IMG/VR virus record: IMGVR_UViG_3300032116_000457
Span: 1-41,907 of that record
Source: a virus
Direction: 5' to 3' (one strand)
Length of the DNA stretch: 41,907 nt
The notes under the pieces are model-generated. The model made no database searches and was not told the DNA's origin. It worked only from the letters and a program-made list of their open reading frames with translations. Position numbers and translations under genes: made by a program. Positions 1 through 5,592 of the stretch are shown here, piece after piece. Each line of letters starts with the position of its first letter. The first letter of the stretch is position 1.

Positions 1-11
1 AACTTCTTAAA

Positions 12-239
12 ATGGCGAAAGACCTTTTATTGGAAGATTATGTTTCCAGTAAAGAACGCCTAATCAATGAATGGCAAGTGAAGGTAGAGTCCGCTAAACT
101 AAACGGACAAGCAATACCAGATCATCCTGCCTTTCCAACTTATCCCTCAGAAAATGAAATCATAGCCAAGGCACAAGCCTTGAACGGGTTCGTTTCTAAT
201 ATCACAGCAGAAAAATCACAGAGCAAAAAATCTGCCTGA
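12..239 (+). CDS. Small conserved-looking phage protein, unknown function
   Basis: A 75-residue soluble protein with no signal peptide, membrane segment or cysteine. The first half is charged and probably helical (LLLEDYVSSKERLINEWQ), the middle is proline-rich (HPAFPTYPSENE), and a second helix and a Lys/Ser-rich tail follow. The ATG at 12 is the first possible start, just after a TAA at 8-10 that may end an upstream gene outside the window. The gene is followed by a UUCG hairpin. I do not recognise a family with confidence. Short proteins of this kind are common beside the replication cluster of marine T4-like phages, but nothing here shows a role. Confidence 0.6.
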   Translation: MAKDLLLEDYVSSKERLINEWQVKVESAKLNGQAIPDHPAFPTYPSENEIIAKAQALNGFVSNITAEKSQSKKSA

Positions 240-246
240 CGGGAAC

Positions 247-266
247 GAGAGTGCTTCGGCACTCTC
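247..266 (+). terminator. UUCG-tetraloop hairpin between two genes
   Basis: Perfect 8-bp inverted repeat GAGAGTGC / GCACTCTC closing a C(TTCG)G tetraloop. No T-run follows (next bases are CTAACTTA), so it is either a weak terminator or an mRNA-stabilising or processing hairpin just 5' of the hydrolase ribosome site (TAGGAG). Confidence 0.55.
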
Positions 267-285
267 CTAACTTATAGGAGAAATA

Positions 286-837
286 ATGCGTTACATCACA
301 CTATTACTTTGTAGTATATTTGCAGCATTTGTTGTTTATATTGGACATGCAGCAGCACAAATAAAAGTGCCGATTGAACCGAGAGTTCAACTACAAGATT
401 TATCACCCGATGCAAGGGCTGAAGTTGAGTGCCTTGCACAAAACATGTATTTTGAAGCAGGATTAGAACCAAGACTTGGCCAAATTGCCGTAGCATTTGT
501 TACACACAATCGAATGCAGTCTGGTGTGTTTCCAAATACCTATTGTGGTGTTGTAAAACAAAAAGTTGGCACTGTTTGCCAATTCTCATGGGTATGTGAG
601 AATCGTCCTAAGGATATGATGAGAAAAGGACTCTTGACACCAGAGAGCAATTCGTTGTATAATAGTGTAACTGAGTTAGCATTGGCGTTTTATCTTTATA
701 CTGAGAAGTTTAAAGACCCAACAAAAGGCGCTTTGTTCTTTCATGCAGACTACGTAAAACCGGGTTGGAATAATATGAGATATACTACACAAATAGGTAG
801 ACATTTATTCTACAATAAGGCAAAGAAAAATTCATGA
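286..837 (+). CDS. Secreted SleB/CwlJ-type cell-wall hydrolase (probable endolysin)
   Basis: A 183-residue protein. Residues 1-24 form a signal peptide or signal anchor (hydrophobic LLLCSIFAAFVVYIG, then HAAAQ), so it should act in the periplasm. The rest matches the SleB/CwlJ (Hydrolase_2) family: AQNMYFEAGLEP, with the presumed catalytic Glu at about residue 57, then AVAFVTHNRM, a fP..YCGVV segment, a CQFSW segment and a late HADYVKPGW/GRHLFY block. The family cleaves the glycan backbone of peptidoglycan. The ATG at 286 has TAGGAG upstream. As the only stand-alone exported wall hydrolase in the window it is the likely lysis enzyme, and the export signal suggests a host-secreted lysin. It ends four bases into an ATGA motif (834). 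A consensus sigma70 promoter lies inside this gene. Confidence 0.85.
   Translation: MRYITLLLCSIFAAFVVYIGHAAAQIKVPIEPRVQLQDLSPDARAEVECLAQNMYFEAGLEPRLGQIAVAFVTHNRMQSGVFPNTYCGVVKQKVGTVCQFSWVCENRPKDMMRKGLLTPESNSLYNSVTELALAFYLYTEKFKDPTKGALFFHADYVKPGWNNMRYTTQIGRHLFYNKAKKNS
634..663 (+). promoter_or_regulatory. Perfect-consensus sigma70 promoter inside the hydrolase gene
   Basis: TTGACA at 634-639 and TATAAT at 658-663, separated by 18 bases. Both hexamers match the bacterial consensus exactly. Transcription would start near 670 and run into the small membrane protein, gp33, gp59, the HAD gene and gp32, ending at the terminator at 3753. Placement inside a gene argues for caution, but no other promoter is evident upstream of this cluster in the window. 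Confidence 0.55.
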
Positions 838-866
838 GTATTTTATCAAGCAAAAAGGAGAAGATG

Positions 867-1085
867 ATGGAAAAAGGATTGAGTAGTATAACCACAGTTT
901 CAGTTACTTTGGTTTTACTTTCAATCGTTGCTGCGGCATGTATCTACGGTTTAAACGACCGTAAACTGATGGCAGCAAATATTGAAAACGCTATTGCAAA
1001 AGGTATTGACCCATTGACTGTACGGTGTTCATATGCCAAGAGTGATGATATTGTTTGTATTGCACACGCTGCTAATCGTAAATAA
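867..1085 (+). CDS. Small single-span membrane protein next to the lysin
   Basis: I chose the ATG at 867 because AAGGAG (855-860) sits six bases upstream. ATG 864 is adjacent, and an in-frame ATG at 834 overlaps the lysin stop but has a poorer ribosome site. The protein is about 72 residues: a short N-terminus, one transmembrane segment (TTVSVTLVLLSIVAAACIYG), then a roughly 45-residue polar tail with two cysteines (RCSYAKSDDIVCIAHA) that could pair. With the N-terminus inside, the tail would be periplasmic. Its position after the lysin makes a lysis accessory (holin or spanin-like) possible, but single-span proteins of this type also occur away from lysins in aquatic phages, so function is unassigned. 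Confidence 0.65.
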   Translation: MEKGLSSITTVSVTLVLLSIVAAACIYGLNDRKLMAANIENAIAKGIDPLTVRCSYAKSDDIVCIAHAANRK

Positions 1086-1099
1086 AGGGAGATTATATT

Positions 1100-1516
1100 A
1101 TGAGTTACAATAGTGATGAACATTCGTTTACATTCCGCTTTCATTCTGCTGAAGGTGAACGAGATTTAGAGATGAACTGTAACGCCTTGTATGTTGGTGA
1201 TATTCTTTCTTTTATGAGAGACTTTTTGCAGGGATGTGGTTATGAAATTGATGGTACGATTGAAGTTGTACCATTTGAAGAAGAAATTTTTGAAGATAAG
1301 TTTTCTATGGATCACTTGCCTAACAATGGATGGCCTTTTGGTTTAGGTCAGCCTGTGCAATCTTTGACTACTGCTGATATCCAACCATTAACAACTGCAC
1401 AGATTCAATCTTTGGTTGGAGAGCAAACTTTGTCTGCATCACCCGCAGGCATGGCAGCATCGTGGTCGGCAGAATTGCCAAGTAGCACAGGCAGCAAAAT
1501 TAGAGTTCAATTCTGA
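1100..1516 (+). CDS. Hypothetical acidic protein, unknown function
   Basis: A 138-residue protein. Residues 1-75 look folded: beta-rich HSFTFRFHSAEGERDLEMNC, then an amphipathic helix, ending in an acidic VVPFEEEIFEDKF segment. Residues 85-138 are low-complexity (repeated T-T-A-x-I-Q motifs, then Ala/Ser-rich). The start has AGGGAG upstream at 1086-1091. The stop overlaps the gp33 ATG (TGATG at 1514-1518), so the two are probably translationally coupled. I do not recognise the family. Confidence 0.65.
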   Translation: MSYNSDEHSFTFRFHSAEGERDLEMNCNALYVGDILSFMRDFLQGCGYEIDGTIEVVPFEEEIFEDKFSMDHLPNNGWPFGLGQPVQSLTTADIQPLTTAQIQSLVGEQTLSASPAGMAASWSAELPSSTGSKIRVQF

Positions 1517-1740
1517 TGCCAACAAAAGATGAAATGCTGAAGTTCTCTTTGCAGATAGAACGGCTGGTGGCCAATACAGATTACACATATCTTGAGGCCA
1601 TCACCGAACACTGTAAAGAAACTGGTTTGGAGTTAGAGGTTGCTGCTTCACTCATTACACCAAATCTTAAAGCAAAAATTCATGAACAAGCAGAACGTTT
1701 GAATATGTTGAAAGTGAAAGGCAATCGTTTACCGATATGA
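1516..1740 (+). CDS. 33: Late-promoter transcription coactivator, T4 gp33-like
   Basis: A 74-residue protein matching the core of T4 gp33: an IERLV...YTYLEAITEHCKETGLELEVAASLI block, then LKAKIHEQAERLNML, corresponds to the YLEATTAFLEENSI...IIEKIQSEAIDENLL core of T4 gp33. In T4, gp33 binds the RNA polymerase beta-flap and links sigma gp55 to the gp45 sliding clamp at late promoters. The order gp33-gp59-gp32 is also that of T4, which supports the call. It is shorter than T4 gp33 (about 112 aa): the N-terminal extension is missing, and the C-terminus (KVKGNRLPI) is basic rather than the acidic-hydrophobic clamp-binding tail of T4. The stop overlaps the gp59 start (ATGA). Confidence 0.8.
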   Translation: MPTKDEMLKFSLQIERLVANTDYTYLEAITEHCKETGLELEVAASLITPNLKAKIHEQAERLNMLKVKGNRLPI

Positions 1741-2348
1741 CAGGATATGAAGCATTCTGTATATACACTTCTCTTAAACTCCACTTTAATTCAGATTCTT
1801 ACGATTACTTTAAGTACAATGGTAAGGTAAGCACAAGCATTGGTGCATTTGAGAATCGTAAAGATAAGTGGCACTTTTATAAACTCAGTCGGAGATTCAC
1901 AAATGTTGACATATGCCGTGATTATATTGTTGCTAATTTGGTGCATAACCATGATGTCTGGATAGGCCATCTTCTGACCAATGATGCAGACATTGAGTAT
2001 CGTAAACGACAGAAGATTGTACAGTCATTGACCTACACATTCACAAACGAAATTGAATCATTAATAAGTCAGGAGAATCCAAATGACTCATTAATGGTAC
2101 AGGATGGTGAGTATCCAGAATTACTACAGAAACTTTTGCATGATGAAATTTCGCTGGAATCAATTTGTATACTGAATAAGATACTTAACTTCTTACCGTT
2201 ATGGGATAAGAAAATCAGTGACACGATTCATTATCCTAATGTCAGTCGAAAAATAAAGAAATACACACCGTTCATACCATTCGAACCAACAAAATACAAA
2301 CTAATACTCAAAAAGGAATACGATGCGAATACAGAAAATATATCTTGA
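1737..2348 (+). CDS. 59: Replicative helicase loader, T4 gp59-like
   Basis: A 203-residue protein, close to T4 gp59 (217 aa). The N-terminal half follows gp59: a hydrophobic first helix (EAFCIYTSLKLHFN), DYFKYNGKVS, then RKDKWHFYKLSRRF, matching KYNWCMRVS...RRDKYFFQKLSEKY in T4, and later IVANLVHNHDVWIG, matching FISNLVANQDAWIG. gp59 binds forked DNA and gp32-coated strands and loads helicase gp41. Its place between gp33 and gp32 is the T4 arrangement. It starts inside the gp33 stop (ATGA) and its end overlaps the HAD gene by 26 bases. Confidence 0.88.
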   Translation: MTGYEAFCIYTSLKLHFNSDSYDYFKYNGKVSTSIGAFENRKDKWHFYKLSRRFTNVDICRDYIVANLVHNHDVWIGHLLTNDADIEYRKRQKIVQSLTYTFTNEIESLISQENPNDSLMVQDGEYPELLQKLLHDEISLESICILNKILNFLPLWDKKISDTIHYPNVSRKIKKYTPFIPFEPTKYKLILKKEYDANTENIS

Positions 2349-2865
2349 TATGGATGGTGTATTGTCTGATTTCAATAAAAGATATAAAGAAGTCTTCAAA
2401 GAAAAAGCGGCAAGCAGCCGTGAACGTGGTGAGAAACATGATGATAAATGGAATCAGTTCGTAGACGGCAAAAACTTTGAAACACTGGATTGGTATCCGG
2501 GTGGTAAAGAACTATTGAAGTACATTATCTCACTTGATATACCTGTAGAGATACTTTCTTCTTCTGGGGGCCGTATGCATCATGAAGAGGTGAAGCGGCA
2601 GAAAAAGGTTTGGTTGAAACGTCATCACATCGACTTTACAGCCAATATCGTACCTGGTCGTCATTTAAAAGCAAACTATGCCAAATCTGATATTATACTT
2701 ATTGATGATACCCAAGATGTCATTGATGACTTTAATATGGCAGGCGGCATAGGCATTCTTCATAAAGAAACGGCTAAAACGATAAAAATTGTGCAATCTG
2801 TTCTTGACGACACATATATACAAGTATATAATGAAACACGTGGACAAGACGCACATACATTTTAA
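2323..2865 (+). CDS. HAD-superfamily phosphatase, 5'(3')-deoxyribonucleotidase-like
   Basis: A 180-residue protein with the HAD signature: motif I YLDMDGVLSDF near the N-terminus (nucleophile and acid-base Asp pair), motif II serine in the EILSSSGG segment, a basic KRQKKVWLKRH stretch in the motif III region, and motif IV ILIDDTQDVIDDF. The size and DMDGV form resemble small phage and bacterial 5'-nucleotidases that dephosphorylate nucleoside monophosphates. Substrate is inferred, not shown. The ATG at 2323 has AAAAAGGAATACG upstream and lies within the end of gp59. It sits between gp59 and gp32, which are adjacent in T4, so it is an insertion into a replication cluster and could serve nucleotide metabolism during replication. 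Confidence 0.78.
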   Translation: MRIQKIYLDMDGVLSDFNKRYKEVFKEKAASSRERGEKHDDKWNQFVDGKNFETLDWYPGGKELLKYIISLDIPVEILSSSGGRMHHEEVKRQKKVWLKRHHIDFTANIVPGRHLKANYAKSDIILIDDTQDVIDDFNMAGGIGILHKETAKTIKIVQSVLDDTYIQVYNETRGQDAHTF

Positions 2866-2889
2866 CAACTAACTTATACGAGGTAAATT

Positions 2890-3747
2890 ATGTCAGACTT
2901 TTCTAGTCTCAAACGCAATCGCAATTCGTTCGATAAACTCACCAAAGCGATTGAATCAATCAATACGCCCGCCGAAGGTTCCAAAGAAGATGATCGCTTC
3001 TGGCAACCCGAAGTAGACAAAGCAGGTAATGGTATGGCAATTATTCGTTTTTTGCCAGCACCAGCAGTAGATGGTGATGATGCACTTCCTTGGGTTCGTG
3101 TCTTCAATCATGGTTTTCAAGGTCCAGGTGGATGGTACATTGAAAATTCTTTGACTACTTTGAATCAGAAAGACCCAGTATCAGAATACAACTCTGTATT
3201 GTGGAACTCTGGTATTGAAGCAAACAAAGAAATCGCACGTAAGCAAAAACGTCGCCTTACATACATTTCAAATGTGCTTATCGTTTCTGATCCCAAGAAT
3301 CCGGAAAACGAAGGTCAAATCAAACTGTACAAGTTTGGTAAGAAAATCTTCGACAAACTGACAGAGGCAATGAATCCTCAGTTTGAAGATGAGAAGGCAA
3401 TTAATCCATTTGACTTCTGGGATGGTGCAAACTTCAAAATCAAGATTCGTCAAGTTGAAGGTTATCGCAACTACGACAAGTCTGAGTTTGAATCTTCTTC
3501 AGCATTGTTTGATGGTGATGATGCAAAACTTGAAGCACTATGGAAAAAAGAATACTCACTCAAAGAGTTTCTTGATCCTAAACACTTCAAGTCATATGAT
3601 GTGTTGAAGGCAAAACTTGATAAAGTTCTTGGTCTTGATGGTGCCGCACCTGTGTCTAAGACAAAGGCTGAAGACTTTACACCACGCTCTTCACCCGACA
3701 TTGAAGATGAAGAACTTGATTACTTCAAGTCTCTAGCAGAAGATTAA
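2890..3747 (+). CDS. 32: Single-stranded DNA-binding protein, T4 gp32-like
   Basis: A 285-residue protein (T4: 301). A basic N-terminal cooperativity segment (LKRNRNSFDKL, cf. the T4 LAST motif) precedes the OB-fold core: AGNGMAIIRFLPAP, VFNHGFQGPGGWYIENSLTT, then DPKNPENEGQIKLYKFGKKIFDKL, matching [23 protein letters not shown] in T4. It ends in an acidic tail (DIEDEELDYFKSLAED) like the part of T4 gp32 that recruits partner proteins. The protein coats ssDNA in replication, recombination and repair. It contains no cysteine, so the T4 zinc site (one His, three Cys) cannot form, although the histidine of NHGF remains. The start has ACGAGG upstream, and a strong terminator follows at once. Confidence 0.95.
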   Translation: MSDFSSLKRNRNSFDKLTKAIESINTPAEGSKEDDRFWQPEVDKAGNGMAIIRFLPAPAVDGDDALPWVRVFNHGFQGPGGWYIENSLTTLNQKDPVSEYNSVLWNSGIEANKEIARKQKRRLTYISNVLIVSDPKNPENEGQIKLYKFGKKIFDKLTEAMNPQFEDEKAINPFDFWDGANFKIKIRQVEGYRNYDKSEFESSSALFDGDDAKLEALWKKEYSLKEFLDPKHFKSYDVLKAKLDKVLGLDGAAPVSKTKAEDFTPRSSPDIEDEELDYFKSLAED

Positions 3748-3752
3748 ACTGC

Positions 3753-3779
3753 AACGCCACCTTCGGGTGGCGTTTTTTT
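3753..3779 (+). terminator. Rho-independent terminator after gp32
   Basis: Perfect 9-bp stem AACGCCACC / GGTGGCGTT with a TTCG loop, followed by a run of T. It ends the gp33-59-32 transcript. The convergent - strand gene stops at 3778-3780, so the hairpin also lies just past that gene's stop on the other strand. Confidence 0.92.
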
Positions 3780-5592
3780 ATGCTGGCACTGCAACGTTTG
3801 TTCGTTTCGTTTCTGCTACAACGTTGTTTGTTGTACGTGCGTTAATGTAAGTTGGATTCTGCGGTTTGGATTGTTCTCTTTGTTCTTTTGATAGTTCAGA
3901 TGAAGATTTTCCTATATCATAATCTGGCGCCTGTTTTCCTGTTGCCAAGTCAACGGGTTTTCCAGATTTGTTTGGAACAATGTCACCATCAGGTGTGGGT
4001 AGACTTTTCAAAGGAGTTACGTGCCAATCTTCTCTCTTAGAAGGATCTTTTCCCTGTTTTATTAGGAAAGAGGATGTGACTGGTCTTGTAAGCCCGAATT
4101 TTTCTAACCAACCTTTAGGGTTGTCAACGTCACCCGCTAACGTTCCAAACATTTGACCTTTTGCTTGAATATCAATAGCAGTACCACCTGTGTGTGGTGA
4201 TCCCGCACCAGATGTACCATCAGCACCTTTTAGTGGTGCAGCAGGTCGAGCAACGACACCTCCTTTTTTACCAGATGCAATCCATTTGTCGTAGAGTTCT
4301 TTTTGTTCTTGATTTGAACGATATGCTGAGTTGATAAGAAGTTTTTGTCCTGTTTCTTTTGTGTATGCTGTTGCCATTTGCACCAAAAGTTTTTCAAATT
4401 CAGGCTTCAATCCAGAATAATCAATAGGAGTAAATTTTGGTGAATTGTCTTTAACAACCGATTGCAAACTGACCGATGAAGATGGTTCTTTTGCTGGCTC
4501 GGGCAAAGGTGCCATTGTTCCATCTGACGGTGGAACTTTATTTACGTCAATTTTAGGTTCTTCTTTTTTCGGTGCAGGAGTTGGTGTTACGGGTCTTTCT
4601 TCAATCGGAGGTAATTTTTTTTCTTCTTTTCTGAATAAACGTTCCAGAAAAGGTTTCTTTTTTTCTTCTTCAAGTCTTCTTTGTGCCTCTTTTTCAGCTT
4701 CTTCTTTTTGTTTTTTCTTCTTCTCTTCTTCTAGTTTTTGTTTTTCTTTTGCTAGGTTATCTTTTTTTTCCGTTAAATCTTTATCTTCCCGATCAAGTTT
4801 TGAATACTCTTCTTCCAACTCTTTCGATTTTTTTACTAGAATTTCTCTTGTTGTTCGTCTTTCTTCCAGTTTGTCAACATCGACACCAAGAACATCTATG
4901 GCAAACACCCTTCCTAATTGTTGAAGTCTTGGAGATAACCATTCTACAGCCATTTCAATATATTTTCCAATACCCTTAATCATTTCTTTATAAAAAGAAC
5001 CTGCTTGCATAATATAATTACCAACTTGTTCTTCACTGATTAAACCGAAACTCAAAAAACTCAAATACTTTTTGAAGGAAGATTCAAATAAATTTAGCCA
5101 ATCAGTGTTTTCGTATAACGATTTTATCCCATCAGATATAAAACCTATTCCTTCTTTTACTTTCGAAATTAAGTCTTCAACATATGGAGTTATGATTTCA
5201 GTTACTTTGTATACGATATATCCAATTGAAAGTAGAGTTCCAATAAACAAGAGTTTAATTAATGTAACTAATTTGTCTAATATTCCGGCCAAAAAAGTTC
5301 TCTTTTTTTCTTTACCGTATTTTTTAACTTTAATATTGGCAACTTTTATTTCTTTTGATTCGGAAAGTGATTTGGTTAAATCAGATATTTGTCCACCAAC
5401 GGCAGGTTGAATGTTATGTAACTTTACAAATCTAGAGAAAGTATTGCTAAGTGATCTTAGTTGTTTTGCCATTGATGGAAACAACAAAGTTTCTTTGGCG
5501 ACAATACGCATCGCTGCTATACCTTTTGGTGTAGCAGTATCTTTTACTACTTTACTTTCTGGATTTGTTTTATTAAAAAGTTTATCAAACAT
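3778..5592 (-). CDS. Tape-measure/hub-like tail protein with C-terminal M15 peptidase domain
   Basis: A 604-residue protein, third of three - strand paralogues. Residues 30-58 carry the shared motif (IVAKETLLFPSMAKQLRSL...FVKL). About 108-133 is strongly hydrophobic (LVTLIKLLFIGTLLSIGYIV), and 175-205 holds the second shared motif (SFGLISEEQV). Residues 240-315 form a highly charged coiled coil, and 320-375 a Pro/Lys linker. Residues 395-530 are an M15 (VanY/DacA-like) zinc peptidase: SPHTGGTAIDI gives S-x-H-x-x-G-x-A-x-D with His467 and Asp474, and EDWH gives Glu521 and His524. M15 enzymes cut the peptide part of peptidoglycan. The C-terminus has a TTNN motif as in its neighbour. I infer a virion protein that opens the wall during DNA entry. 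The start overlaps the previous stop (TAATG). Confidence 0.75.
   Translation of the reverse strand: MFDKLFNKTNPESKVVKDTATPKGIAAMRIVAKETLLFPSMAKQLRSLSNTFSRFVKLHNIQPAVGGQISDLTKSLSESKEIKVANIKVKKYGKEKKRTFLAGILDKLVTLIKLLFIGTLLSIGYIVYKVTEIITPYVEDLISKVKEGIGFISDGIKSLYENTDWLNLFESSFKKYLSFLSFGLISEEQVGNYIMQAGSFYKEMIKGIGKYIEMAVEWLSPRLQQLGRVFAIDVLGVDVDKLEERRTTREILVKKSKELEEEYSKLDREDKDLTEKKDNLAKEKQKLEEEKKKKQKEEAEKEAQRRLEEEKKKPFLERLFRKEEKKLPPIEERPVTPTPAPKKEEPKIDVNKVPPSDGTMAPLPEPAKEPSSSVSLQSVVKDNSPKFTPIDYSGLKPEFEKLLVQMATAYTKETGQKLLINSAYRSNQEQKELYDKWIASGKKGGVVARPAAPLKGADGTSGAGSPHTGGTAIDIQAKGQMFGTLAGDVDNPKGWLEKFGLTRPVTSSFLIKQGKDPSKREDWHVTPLKSLPTPDGDIVPNKSGKPVDLATGKQAPDYDIGKSSSELSKEQREQSKPQNPTYINARTTNNVVAETKRTNVAVPA

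Follow-up and report, generated by a model that had tools for sequence, protein, structure and literature searches.

Organization of the locus

The window analysed here is a stretch of 41,907 nucleotides of viral DNA, and the features at its left end are collected in Table 1. A gene for a SleB-like lysin is followed on the same strand by two small genes and then by the genes of gp33, gp59, a deoxyribonucleotidase and gp32, and a putative sigma70 promoter sits inside the lysin gene itself, in its 3' half. The sole terminator-like site on the + strand of positions 1-3900 stands after gp32, with none between the promoter and gp33, gp59 or gp32. Among relatives, gp33 lies downstream on the same strand in nearly every case where the contig reaches that far, usually together with gp59 and gp32. 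A preliminary description of this DNA had the promoter pointing at gp33-gp59-gp32; direction and target hold in the relatives and agree with the terminator after gp32, whereas gp33 proved to be the third downstream gene and not the first.

Table 1. Coordinates of the lysin gene, the candidate promoters and the downstream genes in the window
Feature	Position	Strand	Details
Covarying RNA hairpin with TTCG loop	247..266	+	just 5' of the lysin ribosome-binding site; 8/8 pairs with double compensatory changes, 24 sequences
SleB-like cell-wall hydrolase (lysin), carrying the candidate promoter	286..837	+	Pfam Hydrolase_2 PF07486, E 6e-22; phrog_938 endolysin; 183 codons
-35 element TTGACA	634..639	+	exact sequence; lysin codons 117-118 (Leu Thr); TTG in 164/164 relatives, ACA in 153 and CCA in 11
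18-nt spacer	640..657	+	codons 119-124; length invariant, sequence free
-10 element TATAAT	658..663	+	codons 125-126 (Tyr Asn); TATAAT in 159/164, TACAAT in 5/164
Predicted transcription start, about A669/A670	667..672	+	position deduced from spacing; codon 129 ACT
First downstream gene, small protein with hydrophobic stretch	834..1085	+	ORF; conserved in relatives
Second downstream gene, fast-evolving	1100..1516	+	ORF; compared in relatives
gp33 late-transcription coactivator	1516..1740	+	PF16805, E 2e-18
gp59 helicase loader	1737..2348	+	PF08993, E 9e-15 (also PF08994); phrog_269, E 4e-55
NT5C-like 5'(3')-deoxyribonucleotidase	2323..2865	+	PF06941, E 3e-7; phrog_2643
Second embedded near-consensus candidate promoter, TTGACG-N17-TATAAT	2804..2832	+	11/12 matches; 3' end of nucleotidase gene, 57 nt before gp32
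gp32 single-strand DNA-binding protein	2890..3747	+	PF08804, E 1e-42
Intrinsic terminator, AACGCCACC-TTCG-GGTGGCGTT then TTTTT	3753..3774	+	strong; after gp32; closes the unit

Close isolates were not found: the best gp59 match among those listed in the phage collection was at 40% (Synechococcus phage DSL-LC02), and in DSL-LC02, Cr30 and HTVC008M the annotation shows no SleB lysin adjacent to gp33. Upstream of its lysin, one relative carries a gene like those of tryptophan halogenases (phrog_2928; L097 6036-7205, G002). The hairpin ahead of the lysin has no T run behind it and may therefore affect translation or the stability of the RNA, not termination. Lysin codons 2-14 (window 289-327) are also synonymously constrained, perhaps reflecting translation initiation or RNA structure. 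The sequence CTAACTTATA, present in the lysin and gp32 leaders (267 and 2869), was rejected as a motif, its occurrence at one mismatch being near chance (8 matches in the window versus 3.5).

The promoter sequence within the lysin gene

The sequence TTGACACCAGAGAGCAATTCGTTGTATAAT at 634-663 on the + strand matches the sigma70 consensus at all 12 hexamer positions with a spacer of 18 nt, within the accepted spacing of 16-19 nt. The perfect hexamer pair reported earlier is thus confirmed in the exact sequence, and it is the only TTGACA/TATAAT pair in the 41,907 bases when both strands and spacers of 15-19 are considered. Such a pair had been regarded as rare by chance. The expected numbers are 0.09 in dinucleotide shuffles and 0.13 when synonymous codons are exchanged within the 38 ORFs, and at least one perfect pair was present in 8 of 100 and 130 of 1000 shuffles, respectively. 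A chance origin is therefore only moderately excluded by this one window, and it is the conservation among relatives described below that rules it out. A scan of positions 1-3900 for sigma70-like scores gave 9 sites as against 11.7 in shuffles and was uninformative because AT-rich DNA often yields weak matches; only exact matches discriminate.

The GTTTAC type of -35 element known from T4 is absent at 634-663. As the element is TTGACA instead, the site would be a host-consensus promoter working like a T4 early promoter without belonging to the T4 early subtype. The T4-like late-promoter core (TATAAATA or CTAAATA) is likewise absent at 634-663, which contains TATAAT and no TAAATA. Both hexamers are in frame with the lysin (TTG ACA for L117 and T118, TAT AAT for Y125 and N126), so that the promoter and a part of the protein, L-T-x6-Y-N, would evolve as one unit. 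The 18-nt spacer counts against the site, as 43 of the 47 other perfect promoters found in relatives have 17 nt and only 4 have 18 nt; the reading frame may have locked this length, as the gain or loss of one base would put the lysin out of frame. At the predicted start, all 61 relatives with Thr at codon 129 encode it by ACT, and this codon has undergone 3 synonymous changes versus 10.4 expected, which is only suggestive of transcription starting there.

Conservation of the hexamers beyond the needs of the protein

Relatives were collected from IMG/VR in four scans with progressively more distant lysin queries, using peptide patterns that do not overlap the promoter codons, and the 219 usable sequences were reduced to 164 distinct genes. 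Pairwise amino acid identity among these lysins falls to 35%, with a median of 49%. In spite of this divergence, TTG[AC]CA-N18-TA[TC]AAT is present in all 164, and both hexamers are perfect in 148 (-35: TTGACA 153, TTGCCA 11; -10: TATAAT 159, TACAAT 5). Leu117, Tyr125 and Asn126 are invariant, whereas the spacer residues vary widely (Ile, Asn, Leu, Thr, Val or Ser at codon 119; Glu, Arg, Ser, Thr, His or Asp at codon 120).

For the synonymous test, 82 edge-disjoint pairs were drawn from a tree of the 164 genes and the synonymous differences were counted at each codon, the expectation being scaled to the divergence of each pair and to the own rate of each amino acid. The four hexamer codons together show 1 synonymous change versus 47.2 expected, with p about 1e-23, a value derived from a simple model and to be read as an order of magnitude only. 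They occupy ranks 1-4 for synonymous constraint across the whole lysin gene, while the spacer codons (46 changes versus 42.8 expected) and the flank upstream of the hexamers (49 versus 52.2) are unconstrained. An earlier run with 38 pairs gave the same pattern (p 7e-11). Selection among the 164 relatives thus keeps the hexamers and the spacer length, not the spacer sequence. The preliminary description had named conservation of the hexamers no further than the protein needs as the result that would refute it, and the opposite was observed.

It could be argued that the lysin simply needs Leu, Thr, Tyr and Asn at these places and writes them with its preferred codons, the likeness to a promoter being incidental. 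TTG, ACA, TAT and AAT are indeed common codons in the window, with a joint probability of 0.05 for a single sequence, and part of the constraint on the protein is real: several SleB enzymes of other phages have Trp at the position of Tyr125, which marks an aromatic residue there as a genuine need of the protein. Leu117, Thr118 and Asn126 are not common to those enzymes, and neither the hexamers nor the LTx6YN motif were found in the SleB homologues of eight other phages, which comprised T5-like, Vequintavirus, Nankokuvirus, Noahvirus, Roseobacter, Curvibacter and Erwinia phages. Invariant residues elsewhere in the lysin also use mixed codons (Thr73: ACA 92, ACC 35, ACT 32; Asn75: AAT 95, AAC 69), as opposed to the near absence of synonymous change at exactly the four hexamer codons beside freely changing spacer codons. 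The synonymous test and the homologues lacking these residues rule out a constraint from the protein only, and incidental codon usage is considered extremely improbable as the whole explanation. In a structure model of the lysin (pLDDT 91.7), residues 117-118 lie in a loop and residues 125-126 in the first turn of a helix (123-137).

The 11 lysins in which Thr118 is replaced by Pro retain TTGCCA as the -35 element. TTGCCA-N16/17-TATAAT recurs in the related genomes G015 and G018, on one strand, with none in the reversed control. These two genomes are the records of L201 and L210, and in them the TTGCCA class coexists with the TTGACA class.

Companion promoters in the window and in relatives

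The contigs of 14 relatives (1.1 Mb) contain 58 perfect pairs as compared with 1 for the reversed pattern; all of them lie on the strand of the embedded promoter, and many occupy the short gap before an ORF. Perfect pairs in more distant contigs behave in the same way. Such numerous, strand-consistent pairs indicate wide use of the host consensus by these phages, the promoter in the lysin gene being one member of a set.

The near-consensus sequence TTGACG-N17-TATAAT, which in the window lies in the 3' end of the nucleotidase gene, is present in 41 of 82 distinct regions upstream of gp32, with a perfect pair in 2, and its codons CTT GAC ... TAT AAT are invariant in 41 distinct genes. A third embedded promoter, perfect in sequence, was noticed where a peptidase-like gene (phrog_5304) has its 3' end, in L083 (6770-6798; G001:26770-26798), L286, L283 and G002:92876-92904; its codon phase is different and it is degenerate in one relative, L285.

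Taken together, these observations could mean that the promoter and not the enzyme dictates most of L-T-x6-Y-N. The lysin would then carry a family-specific loop shaped as housing for a polymerase site, so that early replication genes and a late lysin share the same DNA, with the frame locking the 18-nt spacer. The frozen promoters in the lysin gene, in the nucleotidase gene before gp32 and in the peptidase gene would make up a layer of regulation concealed within genes and discarded by annotation rules. We consider the chances of this joint reading to be evenly balanced.

Proposed transcription of the replication genes and the lysin

Judged from sequence comparison, the site at 634-663 very probably (roughly 85%) functions as an embedded sigma70 promoter for the host RNA polymerase. 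Activity early in infection is its natural reading, the label "early" being given on account of its resemblance to host promoters. Host sigma70 polymerase would start a transcript near 670, inside the lysin gene, which would run through the two small genes and those of gp33, gp59, the nucleotidase and gp32 and stop at 3753-3774. By this means gp59 and gp32, both replication proteins, would be switched on together with gp33, which late transcription requires, before any phage-made transcription factor exists, and gp32 would have an additional near-consensus promoter of its own. The lysin, lying upstream of the start point, would be left out of the early transcript and read from a late promoter of the gp55/gp33 type (CTAAATA) further upstream.

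A real promoter could also serve another purpose, its transcript acting mainly as a replication primer or R-loop, or regulating the lysin by interference, and not as the mRNA of gp33, gp59 and gp32. Replication origins of T4 use transcripts from phage promoters, and a site inside the lysin gene could impede late polymerases. The genes downstream, however, are of early type and form an unbroken operon on the same strand with a terminator at its end, and similar perfect promoters precede many other genes of the relatives; such a role is held to be very unlikely.

The late part of the proposal is supported indirectly. CTAAATA, which has been inferred to be the core of late promoters in the T4-like phage Aeh1 (PMC1524935), occurs 355-445 nt before the lysin start, at about -382, in 86 of 141 distinct relatives as compared with 6 of 846 other windows. 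Only 285 nt precede the lysin in the window analysed here, and a copy belonging to it would lie just beyond its left end. This conserved motif backs a division into a late lysin and early replication genes, and agrees with the earlier suggestion that the lysin is left to late promoters, except in the clade of L209 and L210, where an early consensus overlaps the late motif (further upstream in L201) and the lysin may also be read early.

Composite sites, in which CTAAATA lies inside the spacer of TTGACA/TATAAT, were observed before the lysin in L201 (-885), L209 (-373), L210 (-372) and L134 (-2381), and upstream of gp32 in L020 and L037 with TATATT as the -10 element. They are possibly combined early and late promoters.

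The promoter might, alternatively, be real and not early-only, a constitutive booster within a longer early transcript of which the lysin is already part. Consistent with this, 32 of 101 distinct loci have another early-type consensus in the roughly 5 kb that precede the lysin, one clade has an early consensus at about -372 with CTAAATA inside, and host sigma70 may stay active late. The close relatives of the window, on the other hand, have no early consensus between CTAAATA (-382) and the lysin, and most of them have none within the 4-5 kb examined. A booster is accordingly thought unlikely, and an early promoter that leaves the lysin out is preferred.

Significance

One stretch of DNA appears to be held under two codes, as a promoter and as an enzyme, throughout a large group of T4-like phages known from water without cultivation. 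The case is unusually clean, with both codes conserved across very diverged phages. It could serve as a yardstick for the detection of functional promoters of uncultured phages from synonymous constraint alone, and it allows one to test readily by what means gp33, gp59 and gp32 are switched on in phages that have no recognised middle-promoter system.

Comparison with known systems

In T4, the early promoter Pe148.6 and the middle promoter PmdsbA lie upstream of the rnh-dsbA-33-59-32 region (PMC6024815). Similar to Pe148.6, the promoter described here would be a host-polymerase early promoter serving gp33, gp59 and gp32 and would permit an ordered start of replication and late transcription. 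As T4 has an early promoter before the same genes, the regulatory logic as such is already known. The T4 promoters are situated in the rnh/dsbA area, unlike the present one inside the lysin gene, and the T4 early -35 element is GTTTAC-like and not TTGACA (PMC1524935). T4 has in addition a MotA-dependent middle promoter, with a MotA box in place of the -35 element; nothing of this kind was found here, the -35 element being a perfect TTGACA and a profile search of three relatives with PF09114/PF09010 (MotA/AsiA) having given no match, though its positive control gave none either. The host-consensus -35 element, the placement within the lysin gene and the depth of conservation are the differences from T4.

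Early promoters of the sigma70 type have been predicted in other T4-like phages, namely Melnitz (PMC9004378), cyanophages (PMC3037559) and pf16 (PMC5587285). The present phages resemble marine T4-like phages in their predicted host-consensus early promoters, and some of those phages are without recognised middle promoters. In the Melnitz and cyanophage surveys (PMC9004378, PMC3037559), promoters were retained only if they lay in an intergenic gap or close to one, and by that rule a promoter like the one at 634-663 would have been dropped, so that the in-gene layer was missed by design.

Conserved intragenic sigma54 promoters are known in E. coli (PMC4591121). They too lie inside genes, are conserved across species and can drive the synthesis of long-leader mRNAs downstream. 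The E. coli case involves another sigma factor and cellular genes, whereas here both promoter elements are in-frame codons, conserved in genes with identities down to 35%.
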